Source: an uncultured Poribacteria bacterium
GTDB taxonomy: Bacteria; Poribacteria; WGA-4E; WGA-3G
Direction: 5' to 3'
Length of the DNA: 64,000 nucleotides
Assembly: GCA_951812525.1 (NCBI GenBank)
Contig: OX638316.1
Location: 2,328,630 to 2,392,629, forward strand
The translations under genes and the position numbers were made by a program. The notes under the pieces were generated by a model, which had not been told where the DNA came from, did not search any database, and saw only the letters and a program-made list of their open reading frames with translations. Of the stretch, positions 14,165-46,869 are shown piece after piece. How positions within the stretch are numbered: position 1 is the first letter of the stretch; each line of letters opens with the position of its first letter.

Positions 14165-14312
14165 AGGGGCATTCAGTATTCAATAATTTATATCCGGATG
14201 CCCGGATTTCGTCTGAGGATAGATGAAATCCATTCCTTGTATTACATTCTTGTTCGGGACAGTCTGTTTCCAATAATTTATACCCGGATGCCCGAACTTG
14301 TTCGGGACAGTC
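14165..14312. repeat. MITE left half interrupted by a palindromic element, then a second partial copy
   Basis: From 14165 the left end of the 140-bp MITE runs to GATGCCCG (14198-14205). There it is broken by a palindrome of about 45 bp (GATTTCGTCTGAGG, then AGATGAAATC, with tail ATTCCTTGTATTACATTC). The MITE sequence resumes as TTGTTCGGGACAG. A second partial copy follows from about 14267. The inserted palindrome is the one found, in opposite orientation, inside the second TnpB gene at 25884-25928. Confidence 0.7.
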
Positions 14313-14435: not shown

Positions 14436-14575
14436 AGGGGCATTCAGTTTTCCAATAATTTATACCCGGATGCCCGAACTTGTTCGGGATATGGCACGCA
14501 ACCCGAATAAATTCGGGCATCCATCAACAGAAATCCTTCACATCAGTAAACTTACTTCTTAAACTAAATGACCCT
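14436..14575. mobile_element. MITE-like element, complete copy A (140 bp)
   Basis: Bounded by inverted ends of about 15 bp (AGGGGCATTCAGTTT on the left; reverse complement of the right end reads AGGGTCATTTAGTTT). It contains an internal long inverted repeat (GATGCCCGAA ... TTCGGGCATC) and no open frame. A near-identical complete copy lies at 51086-51226. Such non-autonomous elements move using a transposase encoded elsewhere. Confidence 0.8.
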
Positions 14576-23673: not shown

Positions 23674-24867
23674 ATGAAATGCACATTTAAATATCGTGTC
23701 TACCCGACGGCTGTACAAGAACAGTGGCTTTTTGCGGAGTTGCGGCACCAAAAACAGTTACAGAACTACATGCTCCAGATGCGTTCGCAGATGTGGGAGT
23801 ATGGTAGCAAATCTGTGTCGCTTTATGATCAAATCAATCATTTGGCAAAACTCCGTGAAAACTCACATTATGCGACACACGCACAGGATATGCAGGTTTC
23901 TACTATCAAGCGCGTTGATACTGCTTTCCAGCATTTCTTTCGCCGTTGTCAAGACGGTTCGGAGAAAAGAGGGCATCCGCGGTATAAGAAATCTGTCCGG
24001 TCCTTGACGTGGTGCTTGCGAAAATCTCAAGGTGTGCGTCGGAAACCGATTCGTGAAACAGGCAGACGGCAGAACCGATTAAAAGTGCCGAAACTCGGTG
24101 AAGTTGCTATCCGTCAGCACCGTCCATTCATCGGAGACCCGAAAGAGGTCACGTTGAAAAAGACAGCGCGTGGATGGTATGCTTTTATCGTTTGTGAGGT
24201 GCCTGATCCGGTGAAATGCGTTCCACAATCTGCTTGTGGGGTCGATGTCGGCACACACAATTTTCTAACGACTTCTGACGGCGAAAAGATACCCAACCCT
24301 CGCTTTTATCGTCAGGCAGAATGGAAACTCGCGAAACTTCAACGTAACCTCTCTCGAAAGAAAAGAGGGAGTCGGCGTTGGTATAAGGCAAAGCAGGCGA
24401 TTGCGAAACAGCATGATATTGTTGTTTGCCAGCGTCTCGACTTTATAGCAAAAACCGCCTATTGGCTTTTTCACCATAAAGGTTTTGATGCCGTCGTCGC
24501 TGAAGAACTCAAACCGAGCAATCTGGTAAAGAACCGGTATCTTGCGAAGTCTATTTCTGATGCATCTTGGGCTATCTTCTTTGATTGGTGTGCTTGGGTT
24601 GCCAAACGTGATGGCAAACATTTCCATCAAGTGTCACCCCATAACACAAGTCAAACCTGCTCGCAGTGTTGCCAACGTGCGGATACCAGACTGAAGTTGT
24701 CTCAACGCATGTTCTATTGTAAGTCCTGTGGAATCCGTATTGACCGCGACCACAACGCGGCGTTAAATATACTTTTCAGGGCGGCTTGCGCCCTTCGTGG
24801 AGAGGTGTGGGATGCCATCCTCTATGAAACGAGAAACCCGTTATTACAACAGGCTTGTTGGGGTTAA
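23674..24867 (+). CDS. tnpB: TnpB RNA-guided nuclease of an IS200/IS605-type element
   Basis: 397 residues, normal length. The RuvC catalytic residues are present: Asp191 in CGVDVGTHNFL, the Glu pair 277-278 in VVAEELKPSNL, and Asp359 in IDRDHNAALNIL. The zinc ribbon is CSQC (329-332) and CKSC (349-352). TnpB cuts DNA guided by an RNA made from the element's 3' end and helps keep the transposon in place. No tnpA accompanies it. By sequence it looks catalytically intact. Its right end, annotated next, should encode the guide scaffold. Confidence 0.95.
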   Translation: MKCTFKYRVYPTAVQEQWLFAELRHQKQLQNYMLQMRSQMWEYGSKSVSLYDQINHLAKLRENSHYATHAQDMQVSTIKRVDTAFQHFFRRCQDGSEKRGHPRYKKSVRSLTWCLRKSQGVRRKPIRETGRRQNRLKVPKLGEVAIRQHRPFIGDPKEVTLKKTARGWYAFIVCEVPDPVKCVPQSACGVDVGTHNFLTTSDGEKIPNPRFYRQAEWKLAKLQRNLSRKKRGSRRWYKAKQAIAKQHDIVVCQRLDFIAKTAYWLFHHKGFDAVVAEELKPSNLVKNRYLAKSISDASWAIFFDWCAWVAKRDGKHFHQVSPHNTSQTCSQCCQRADTRLKLSQRMFYCKSCGIRIDRDHNAALNILFRAACALRGEVWDAILYETRNPLLQQACWG

Positions 24868-25307: not shown

Positions 25308-26468
25308 GTGAAAACCTATAAATATAAGATGTCGAATCAGTCGAATACGATACGTCTCGGCAACTTGCTTGACGATATGTGGCGAGTCCATGCGTATTTT
25401 CATAAATGGCAACGTCAACGCTATAAAGATGGGATGCCCTACGCGAACTATAATGCGATGTCTGCGCACTTGACTGAACTCAAGCGAACGACACACCCAC
25501 ATTGGAATGCGTTGCCGTCTCAAGCGATCCAATGTGAGTTGAAGCGGATAGACGCAGCCTATCAGCGTTTTTTCGATAACCTCGGTGGTAGACCGCATAT
25601 CAAGGCAAGACATAAGTTTAAATCTATGACCTTTCCGGGAGCATCGGGGTGGAAACTCAAAGACAATCGTATTTCTATTAATGTCAAACAATACAATGAA
25701 ACAAAGCATAAATGGCAAAATGATTTTCTTCCTTATACTTTTCATAAACACCGAGAGATTGAAGGTAAAATCAGACGTATCACACTCAAACGTGATAACT
25801 GTGGAGACTATTGGCTCTGCATAACTACGAACCACACCGATACCGAATCCTTACCGACAACAGGTCAGAGCGTTGGGGCAGACAATGTAATACAAGGAAT
25901 GAATTTGATCTATCCCCAGATCAAATTCGGTATGAAAGACGCTTACCTCACACTTAGCACAGGTGAGAAGATACAACATCCACAACCCCTGAAACAATCC
26001 TTGACCAAACTTCGCAGTCTCAACAAAAACCTTTCTCGTAAAGTTAAAGGCTCTAACGGCTGGTGGCGTGCTGTGCTTGTGCTCGCAAAACACTATAGAC
26101 ACGTTGCTAACCAGCGCAAAGACTTTCATTGGAAACTTGCCACATATCTGTGTGAAAGGTTTGATATCATAGTTCTTGAGACCTTGAACCTTGAGGGTAT
26201 GAAACGGAGACCTTGGGGTCGTAAGGTTTCTGATCTCGCTTTCTACCAATTTGTTGAGATATTGAAATATAAGTGTTTGAAACATAATCGTGAGTTGCAT
26301 CAAGTCGGACAGTGGACTGCTACTACAAAACCGTGCTCGGATTGCGGAGAGAACAACGAAAATCTTTCTCTCTCTGATAGGGAGTGGAGATGTCCTGACT
26401 GTGGCTCTCACCACGATAGAGACATCAACGCTGCGATAAACATATTGCGGGTAGGGCTAGCTACCTGA
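25308..26468 (+). CDS. tnpB: TnpB with a palindrome inserted in its RuvC-I motif
   Basis: 386 residues from GTG 25308. The zinc ribbon (CSDC ... CPDC), RuvC-II (FDIIVLETLNLEGM) and RuvC-III (HHDRDINAAINIL) are intact. In RuvC-I, catalytic Asp192 (SVGAD) is separated from the rest of the motif (FGMKDAYLTLSTGEKI) by 14-15 foreign residues. The inserted DNA is a palindrome also found at 14206-14250. Since other TnpBs read D-x-G directly, the nuclease is probably inactive, though the frame is open. It differs widely from the 23674 TnpB but shares its left-end structure. Confidence 0.9.
   Translation: MKTYKYKMSNQSNTIRLGNLLDDMWRVHAYFHKWQRQRYKDGMPYANYNAMSAHLTELKRTTHPHWNALPSQAIQCELKRIDAAYQRFFDNLGGRPHIKARHKFKSMTFPGASGWKLKDNRISINVKQYNETKHKWQNDFLPYTFHKHREIEGKIRRITLKRDNCGDYWLCITTNHTDTESLPTTGQSVGADNVIQGMNLIYPQIKFGMKDAYLTLSTGEKIQHPQPLKQSLTKLRSLNKNLSRKVKGSNGWWRAVLVLAKHYRHVANQRKDFHWKLATYLCERFDIIVLETLNLEGMKRRPWGRKVSDLAFYQFVEILKYKCLKHNRELHQVGQWTATTKPCSDCGENNENLSLSDREWRCPDCGSHHDRDINAAINILRVGLAT
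25884..25928. repeat. palindromic element inserted in frame in tnpB
   Basis: About 42-45 bp: AATGTAATACAAGGAAT then the hairpin GAATTTGATCT/AGATCAAATTC. It matches, in reverse orientation, the element interrupting the MITE at 14206-14250, so it is a mobile repeat and not part of TnpB. Confidence 0.88.
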
Positions 26469-27801: not shown

Positions 27802-28215
27802 TTAGACCCCTTTTTGGCTTTCTACATATTGCTTTAGAGTTTCAAGTGTAACGCTGCCCACACTTGCCACAAGCTTACCTCTTGTCCATAGACACGGTAA
27901 TTTTCGCTTAAGAACAGGGAACTCATCACGAAGTATCTTCGCAGTATATCCTTTAATTTTGTGAATAATGCTTGTAACAGAAACATCAGGCGGAATGCTC
28001 ACAAGTAGGTGGATGTGGTCTGGCATGCTCTCGACTTCGCGAACAATGTATCCATATCCCTCTTGTCGGTCAATAATCAAGGCTTTGAGTCTCGCTTGGA
28101 TTTCTTGGGATAAGGCAGAACGCCTATATTTCACGCACCAGATGATGTGATACTCACAAGCATATACAGTTGTTTCGGTTGAAATATATTTGTGGTCTCT
28201 ATTTTCAATTCTCAT
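27802..28215 (-). CDS. tnpA: IS200/IS605-family TnpA (Y1 HUH transposase)
   Basis: 137 residues from ATG 28215. HUH motif is MPDHIHLLVSIPP; the catalytic tyrosine is in LETLKQYVESQK; the fold signature YHIIWCVKYRR opens the protein. It cuts and rejoins single-stranded DNA to move the element. Residues upstream of this ATG in the same frame are AT-rich and overlap a consensus promoter, so the longer start at 28263 is unlikely. It lies 440 bp from the broken lamin-tail gene and may have caused its truncation. No tnpB is adjacent on the other strand. Confidence 0.93.
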   Translation of the reverse strand: MRIENRDHKYISTETTVYACEYHIIWCVKYRRSALSQEIQARLKALIIDRQEGYGYIVREVESMPDHIHLLVSIPPDVSVTSIIHKIKGYTAKILRDEFPVLKRKLPCLWTRGKLVASVGSVTLETLKQYVESQKGV

Positions 28216-28221
28216 ATAGAT

Positions 28222-28250
28222 ATTATACCATAAAACATAGTTTATTTCAA
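28222..28250 (-). promoter_or_regulatory. promoter of tnpA, likely giving a leaderless mRNA
   Basis: Minus strand: TTGAAA (28250-28245), 17 bp, TATAAT (28227-28222). The -10 ends seven nt before the tnpA ATG, so transcription should begin at or next to the A of ATG. The AT-rich 28251-28656 region holds no other gene. Confidence 0.75.
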
Positions 28251-28656
28251 ATAAAAATAACAAAAAAAGTATTTTATCTCTTACATTAGTATAATTGCAA
28301 AAGCCGAAAATGGCGAAACCTTCGACTTTGAAAATCCGGCTTTTAACTTCACTGATCTTTCCTTTTTGATTATACCCATCAAGAATAACATTACTATATT
28401 ATTGTAAGGTAACATCCTCATTAGGCGATTTTTCCATTTCCTCTTTTTTCCATAAAAAGATAGATAAGTGTTTCTTTGTTTTCTACCTTCTTCTGTTCTC
28501 CGTTCCCAGTAACTAGTGGGACCCTTTGTATAAAAAACGAATAAATAATTTATATTTAACATAATAATATATTTTGGAATTAGACATAGCAGGCAAAAGG
28601 CAACCATTTTTTATGAGCGATTTTCCTCCCACCCTAAAGGATGGGAGAAAACCGAA

Positions 28657-41382: not shown

Positions 41383-41856
41383 ATGAAATATCGAAATCAC
41401 GATCTACGTAAAGGCAGAGTCTCAATACCGGGAGCATATTATCATATTATTATCAACACACACCAGCGACAGCAGCTTCTCGCGAATGACGGGGTTGCAT
41501 CAATTATCTTTGAAACATTTGCTTGGTTAGAAGCCAAACACCGGCTCAGATGGATCTGTATTATGATTATGCCTGACCATGTGCATACAATCATTGAACT
41601 TGGTGCTGGGCAGACTCTCGCCAAGGTTATGCATTCGCTGAAATTATTTACAGCACGCAAAATCAATGAACGCTTATCACGGGATGGGACTTTCTGGCAG
41701 CACGGTTATAGCGATTGGGCGATTCGTACCGAAGAGACATTAAACAACACCATTCGTTATTGTTATGCGAATCCGGTGAAAGAAGGTATAGTAAAATCAG
41801 CTCAGGATTATCCGTATTGGCGGTGCAAATTTGACATGGTAGGAGAGGTTTCCTAA
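41383..41856 (+). CDS. REP-associated tyrosine transposase (RAYT, Y1 family)
   Basis: 157 residues from ATG 41383. The HUH motif is MPDHVHTIIELG; the catalytic tyrosine is in TIRYCYANPVKEGIV; the N-terminus (RVSIPGAYYHIIINTHQR) and the WQHGYSDWAIR region are those of RAYTs. In other bacteria RAYTs process REP hairpins with a GTAG/GTGG head. Here GTAG palindromes flank both sides, and the stop codon TAA itself lies in a palindrome (GGTTTCCTAACC). No Shine-Dalgarno site is seen. It is probably the mobiliser of this window's GTAG palindromes. Confidence 0.92.
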   Translation: MKYRNHDLRKGRVSIPGAYYHIIINTHQRQQLLANDGVASIIFETFAWLEAKHRLRWICIMIMPDHVHTIIELGAGQTLAKVMHSLKLFTARKINERLSRDGTFWQHGYSDWAIRTEETLNNTIRYCYANPVKEGIVKSAQDYPYWRCKFDMVGEVS

Positions 41857-46389: not shown

Positions 46390-46869
46390 TCATTCTTCAG
46401 ATAATGGATCCGAAACCGGGTCAAAAACATACTTCATATCATACGCAATTCCAAAACGCTCCAAAAACGCAAGATACTCGTCCCGAAACGTCCGACGCGA
46501 ATGATGCGCTTCCTGATTTTCAATATATGTGGCTACCTCGGCTATCTGAGAATGTGAATAGCTGAACGCACCAAACCCCTCTTGCCATGAAAATTGCCCT
46601 GTAGTCCAACGCTTCTGACTGATAAAACGTGTCGAATTTACCTTGATGTCTTTTACTAAACTGGACAGTGCCACGTTTGGGGTCATGCCTATCAGAATGT
46701 GGATATGGTCGGGCATTGAATTGATTTGAATCAATTTTTGTCCCTTATTGGTGATAATGCCGGTGATGTATTTGTGGAGTTCTGGCTTGTGAAGTTTAGG
46801 AATGAGTGCTTGTCTGCCTTTCACAGAAAACACAATGTGTACGTAGAGTTGGGTATAGGTATCTGCCAT
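46390..46869 (-). CDS. Y1 (HUH) transposase next to the family-2 array
   Basis: 159 residues from ATG 46869, GAGGAT five nt upstream. HUH motif is MPDHIHILIGMTP; the catalytic tyrosine is in VATYIENQEAHHSRRTF. The start (YTQLYVHIVFSVKGRQALIP) matches a common IS200-like group often annotated simply as transposase. Palindromes of one family lie on both sides (45.04-46.38 and 46.97-47.13 kb), so this protein is the natural candidate for mobilising them, in parallel with the RAYT and its GTAG palindromes. Ends of a conventional IS are not evident. Confidence 0.92.
   Translation of the reverse strand: MADTYTQLYVHIVFSVKGRQALIPKLHKPELHKYITGIITNKGQKLIQINSMPDHIHILIGMTPNVALSSLVKDIKVNSTRFISQKRWTTGQFSWQEGFGAFSYSHSQIAEVATYIENQEAHHSRRTFRDEYLAFLERFGIAYDMKYVFDPVSDPLSEE

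Follow-up and report, generated by a model that had tools for sequence, protein, structure and literature searches.

A 45-bp palindromic element inserted in frame at the RuvC-I motif of TnpB nucleases in sponge-associated Poribacteria

The tnpB locus and its insert

The window analysed here is a 64,000-nucleotide stretch of DNA from a sponge-associated poribacterium. At 25308–26468 (+ strand) it carries a tnpB gene with a GTG start, which encodes an IS200/IS605-type RNA-guided endonuclease of 386 aa, as judged by translation and profiles (NF040570 guided_TnpB at 223.6 bits against a cut-off of 100, with further matches to OrfB_IS605 and Cas12f1-like_TNB). A second TnpB, a distant relative (~30% identity) without the insert described below, is encoded just upstream at 23674–24867 (+). 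Inside the 386-aa gene, a 45-bp palindromic repeat, termed E here, occupies 25884–25928 (+; AATGTAATACAAGGAATGAATTTGATCTATCCCCAGATCAAATTC), directly 3′ of the GAC codon (25881–25883, +) for the RuvC-I catalytic Asp192, a residue invariant in 43 TnpBs. E encodes NVIQGMNLIYPQIKF in frame and without a stop. Its arms GAATTTGATCT (25901–25911, +) and AGATCAAATTC (25918–25928, +), located by an inverted-repeat check and also folded, form a perfect inverted repeat of 11 bp. Sequence, translation and inverted repeat confirm the initial annotation, which had placed an in-frame palindrome at this motif with 14–15 extra residues after Asp192; in the homologue alignment, most poribacterial relatives are insert-free and read VGAD-FGMKDAYLTL, such that 45 bp replaces one Phe codon for a net gain of 14 residues.

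The codons of RuvC-II Glu291 (26178–26180, +) and RuvC-III Asp372 (26421–26423, +) specify residues that are, like D192 and the zinc-finger cysteines C343, C346, C362 and C365, invariant in the alignment. An AlphaFold model of the insert-bearing TnpB (mean pLDDT 82.7) has strands at 188–193 and 212–216 and disorder at 195–210 between them, where pLDDT falls below 50 and the loop model is unreliable. The model superposes on ISDra2 TnpB (8h1j) with a Z of 27.5 and 26% identity over 343 residues. Fold and catalytic triad are the same as in ISDra2 TnpB (8h1j, 8bf8, 8exa), whereas in the window protein the single residue that separates the RuvC-I Asp from the next Gly is replaced by 15. The evidence favours a tolerated loop between two strands. 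If translated, E would give peptides spanning NVIQGMDLVYSQTK.

The exchange rule and the hosts of E

The consensus of E is AATGTAATACAAGGAATGGATTTAGTCTATTCCCAGACTAAATCC, consisting of a conserved 17-nt head (AATGTAATACAAGGAAT) followed by a hairpin with a stem of 10–11 bp and a loop of 6–8 nt. Its borders read AATG... at one end and ...AAATCC at the other, and it is palindromic only in its 3′ part. Sequence matching located the second copy of the window within a MITE at 14204–14248 (−); the reverse-strand match to a MITE that had been described initially is therefore real, although its coordinates (14206–14250) were about 2 bases off. The two copies share an exact match of 18 bases, and two were found where 0.04 were expected with three mismatches allowed. 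Empty copies of the same MITE palindrome (CCCGAACTTGTTCGGG; on the minus strand CCCGAACAAG-TTC-GGG) lie at 14291–14306 (+) and 14473–14488 (+), as established by empty/filled comparison. The head motif has 19 copies in the genome of origin, against 0 matches for a reversed control. E was present in 38 of 38 sampled genomes of the host's poribacterial genus and in 0 of 47 genomes from elsewhere in the phylum. Searches of plasmids and of viral contigs did not find E, and Rfam covariance models gave 0 matches in the window at gathering thresholds.

Comparison of empty and filled sites of seven kinds, including E within E, revealed one pattern: a TNN trinucleotide is lost and 45 bp is gained, a net change of +42 bp. 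The empty sites are GCAGAC-TTC-GGYATG in tnpB, AACAAG-TTC-GGGCAT in the MITE, GTGCGG-TTT-CCTAAC and GTTGGG-(TAA, TTA or TCA)-CCCAAC in GTAG-type palindromes, TTTTGC-TTG-GGTATT, AATTTA-TTC-GGGACA and, for self-insertion within E, GGA-TTT-AGTC. In an eighth site family, the empty form of which was searched for with NNN left open, TTC or TTT was found in seven of eight matches and CTC in one. Read from the sequences, an equivalent account would be that 42 bp is put before the T and the following two bases become CC. We know of no transposition chemistry in which three target bases are lost. E also differs from DDE-type MITEs, in that there is no target-site duplication, 3 bp is replaced and the palindrome is confined to the 3′ part. 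An IS605-type target rule was dismissed on visual inspection, as the flanks hold no constant tetranucleotide; group I or II introns, inteins and ribosomal bypass were rejected by size and for want of matching codons.

Because the net gain is exactly 42 bp, frame is kept at every insertion. The initial observation that E entered tnpB without frameshift or stop holds, but frame keeping is inherent in the 45-for-3 exchange, and a missing frameshift is therefore by itself no evidence of selection; selection on E touches only the frame that is read and the stem variant that is read. The common A/T stem variant can be read through without stops in just one of the frames; where a copy is read in the other (CNTRNGFDLFPDQIP), its stem is of a non-A/T type.

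The hosts of E comprise MITEs, GTAG-type palindromes (for example GTAGGGGTTGGG..CCCAACCCCTAC, which resemble GTAG REPs), copies of E itself and cellular genes, in which it lies in frame. Other genic copies, the search for which the initial annotation had proposed, were confirmed in frame against insert-free homologues in an L-amino-acid ligase, an MBL-fold protein and an AMP-ligase/reductase, and genus-wide homologue alignments showed insertion to be stepwise and nested. Depending on the genome, the L-amino-acid ligase (ATP-grasp) has no insert, a GTAG palindrome alone (VGVGLPNPY) or that palindrome with its loop filled by E (VGVG-NVIQGMDLVYPQTKS-PNPY); the MBL-fold protein follows the same series. 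In the AMP-ligase/reductase, E is read in the second frame, and one genome has a copy of E nested within another. Further copies, seen without an insert-free comparison, lie in an ORF of 1166 aa that we take from its sequence to be A2M-like and in another that we likewise take to be outer-membrane-like; genome-wide genic counts rest on sampled copies. The reading frame through E is open, and the element may be retained in the protein.

Several related arrangements were observed alongside these copies. Two unrelated genes (L264 and L241) have, at the point of the shared host palindrome where E sits elsewhere, another in-frame insert (VGVGEPEETPQQKHPY, VGVGLPEETPKQKHPY). In the AMP-ligase genes L305 and L306, the linker position that is empty or filled by E in other genomes holds lengthy repeat-derived stretches, in frame (WLMVNSSWLMVNSLWLM..., NNQQP). 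Four copies of E in the genome of origin (L009, L011, L014 and L018) contain a second head-plus-hairpin element of ~43 bp, AATGTAAAGCAAAGAC-AAATTTTGCC-GCGTGTG-GGCAAAATTT, at the same GGA-TTT point at which E enters E; it is probably a sister family of E. One further copy (L196) has an inverted hairpin loop (TGGGAATA, not TATTCCCA), suggesting flipping of the hairpin.

The stem is well kept. Among 26 distinct copies, pairing is kept in 95.4% of stem cells, and both-sided changes number 15 (0 of 500 shuffles). Compared with the usual tnpB variant, the window tnpB copy carries two paired double changes, GGATTTGGTC/GACCAAATCC to GAATTTGATC/GATCAAATTC, with which the stem stays perfect and four amino acids differ (D to N, V to I, T to I and S to F). 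Either selection on the hairpin or correction templated by it could account for this upkeep.

Recurrence of E at one tnpB codon

Of the 72 tnpB gene rows compared, 19 carry E at one and the same codon (catalytic GAC, Phe, Gly), and insert-free sister copies occur as well. The insertion first described as a feature of this one TnpB is thus real but not unique, and every insert shared among homologues is the palindrome; none carries the extra residues apart from it. In a tree of the 72 genes built with the insert excluded, in which a few rows are one locus drawn from two collections, insert-bearing rows are scattered. Their distribution takes 10 changes, at least five of them forced by well-supported branches, and 0 of 500 shuffles came as low as 10. 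The tree test rejected a single clade of insert-bearing tnpBs, and the scatter points to recurrent insertion or short-tract homing, not to one inherited event. Gene pairs with identical inserts differ by up to 19 nt in the adjoining 45-nt windows, and the synonymous distance beside the insert in insert–insert pairs (0.41 and 0.49) is not reduced relative to the gene-wide value of 0.41. There is therefore no long conversion tract, and long-tract gene conversion as the spreader of E was left unsupported by this test; identical inserts in diverged genes, with no local synonymous drop, speak against plain inheritance as well as long-tract conversion. In one genome, two insert-bearing IS copies are 99.7% identical over 1.5 kb and differ in their flanks, indicating that the insert-bearing IS moves as a unit.

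The inserts in tnpB also resemble one another in their stems: a G/C arm variant occurs in 14 of 15 distinct tnpB inserts compared with 12 of 97 other copies of E (P = 5e-10). This suggests that most tnpB inserts descend from, or were copied from, one tnpB insert and are not free draws from the genomic pool. We read the pattern as recurrent, site-preferring insertion fed mainly by tnpB-resident or closely related copies. The shared arm variant, rare elsewhere, would also suit one ancient insertion into a single tnpB that was spread by recombination between IS copies, of which each genome holds many able to recombine, and was erased elsewhere when conversion restored the empty allele, with no site-specific re-insertion. 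We hold this account to be somewhat unlikely, as the unreduced synonymous distance would leave it only tracts of a few bases, the insert of L211 carries the A/T arm variant instead, and plain excision would leave a Ser codon where every empty tnpB site has Phe. Whether the insert leaves a working enzyme is a separate matter. It is possible, although we lean against it, that E kills the nuclease and that insert-bearing tnpBs are passengers surviving only by transposition in trans: E adjoins Asp192, the loop is the unreliable part of the model and the window copy sits on a long branch (0.34). However, the catalytic residues and zinc-finger cysteines are kept, full-length insert-bearing copies contain 0 stops, and dN/dS is 0.06–0.16 in insert-bearing pairs against 0.09–0.13 in comparable insert-free pairs, low values that may mostly predate the insertions if these are recent. 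The clearest pair in this respect, two sisters that probably share their insertion, is L134/L208 (dN 0.036, dS 0.378).

Two other accounts would remove E from the protein or from the genome altogether. Folded as mRNA, E forms a stable hairpin (z about −3.6), here downstream of a putative take-off codon, as might be expected if E were regulated or skipped, by ribosomal bypass of the mitochondrial byp or T4 gene 60 kind or by RNA removal, and TnpB were made without it. This is very improbable: the take-off and landing codons do not match (GAC before E, TCC or TTC as its last codon, GGY after it), the frame is open throughout, and in other genes E is read in the second frame (CNTRNGF...), where no stop-containing variants were seen. 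That the junctions are assembly or binning artefacts has a next to negligible chance; some short-read contigs do end near E, but the same junctions recur across many independent genomes, and single-contig assemblies show them too.

A proposed mobile hairpin and its relatives

We consider it likely that E is a genus-specific, non-autonomous mobile hairpin that exchanges TNN for 45 nt, has arrived repeatedly at the tnpB Phe codon and is tolerated there. Lacking a mover gene of its own, E swaps a TNN trinucleotide for 45 nt, as the empty and filled sites show, and would prefer certain targets, among them its own GGA-TTT, GAC-TTC-GGYATG in tnpB, AAG-TTC-GGGCAT in the MITE and the loop region of GTAG-type palindromes. 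Repeated arrival at the RuvC-I Phe codon is suggested by the tree, by near-identical inserts in diverged genes and by the one insert with a different arm. In TnpB, E would be read as a flexible loop of 15 residues in the β1–β2 turn beside the catalytic Asp, a loop that the kept fold and catalytic residues, as predicted, and the low dN/dS suggest is tolerated. E may thus be a selfish, protein-tolerated palindrome of the RPE kind. As its mover, the likeliest candidate may be a Y1 single-strand transposase of the genome, of RAYT or IS200 type, or else hairpin-templated repair. Of the five Y1 transposases that the genome encodes, two score as RAYTs (REP_Tyr_transpos, above the curated cut-off). 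Three of the five lie in the window: one RAYT at 41383–41856 (+; profile NF047646, 128 bits) and IS200-type TnpAs at 27802–28263 (−) and 46390–46869 (−). A bolder version, which we regard as unlikely, is that E or a subfamily of it is a protein-less homing hairpin that re-inserts at one tnpB codon across the IS family, through a 3-for-45 exchange that resembles no known transposition, and so retunes or disarms a transposon-guarding nuclease.

The initial annotation had likened E to Rickettsia palindromic elements (RPEs), but in a transposon protein. RPEs, for which we rely on the cited reviews, are small palindromic repeats found in frame in unrelated protein genes (PMC10969869), those of R. 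conorii with a terminal CGTC tag (PMC3733652). The likeness holds and the restriction to a transposon protein fails, since E lies in frame in tnpB and in unrelated cellular genes (the L-amino-acid ligase, MBL-fold and AMP-ligase genes and further ORFs). At 45 bp, however, E falls short of the RPE length of about 100–150 bp, and it has no CGTC end tag. Unlike RPEs and their Wolbachia relatives, it is restricted to one genus of Poribacteria, swaps exactly 3 bp, is found again and again at a single codon of a transposon nuclease and nests in other palindromes and in itself. REPs, which carry a GTAG/CGTC tag and are mobilized by RAYTs, also have some copies inside ORFs (PMC3733652). E shares with them a tag-plus-hairpin layout and compensatory stem variants, and the two RAYTs of the genome are a candidate link; it differs in its 17-nt head, lacks a terminal GTAG or CGTC and inserts into such palindromes. 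Yeast mitochondrial GC clusters are tiny mobile palindromes as well, one of them in frame in var1. Volvox organelle DNA contains small mobile palindromes nested in one another (PMC2670323). Compared with both, E is bacterial, in frame in several conserved enzymes and bound to a fixed 3-for-45 exchange. Because the size and tag of RPEs and the tag of REPs are absent, we place E in neither class: it works like RPEs, yet is a separate, nested, target-preferring family.

A search of the available literature found no paper on E, or on palindromic insertions in Poribacteria or in TnpB. Palindromic insertions that stay in frame are known mainly from Rickettsiales, and we know of no established mechanism for moving such small hairpins. 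This poribacterial genus supplies many insertions with their empty sites, a strict 3-for-45 rule, self-nesting and a recurrent target in the active site of an RNA-guided nuclease. Both how the element moves and how well the TnpB/Cas12 RuvC pocket tolerates an added loop thereby become directly testable.
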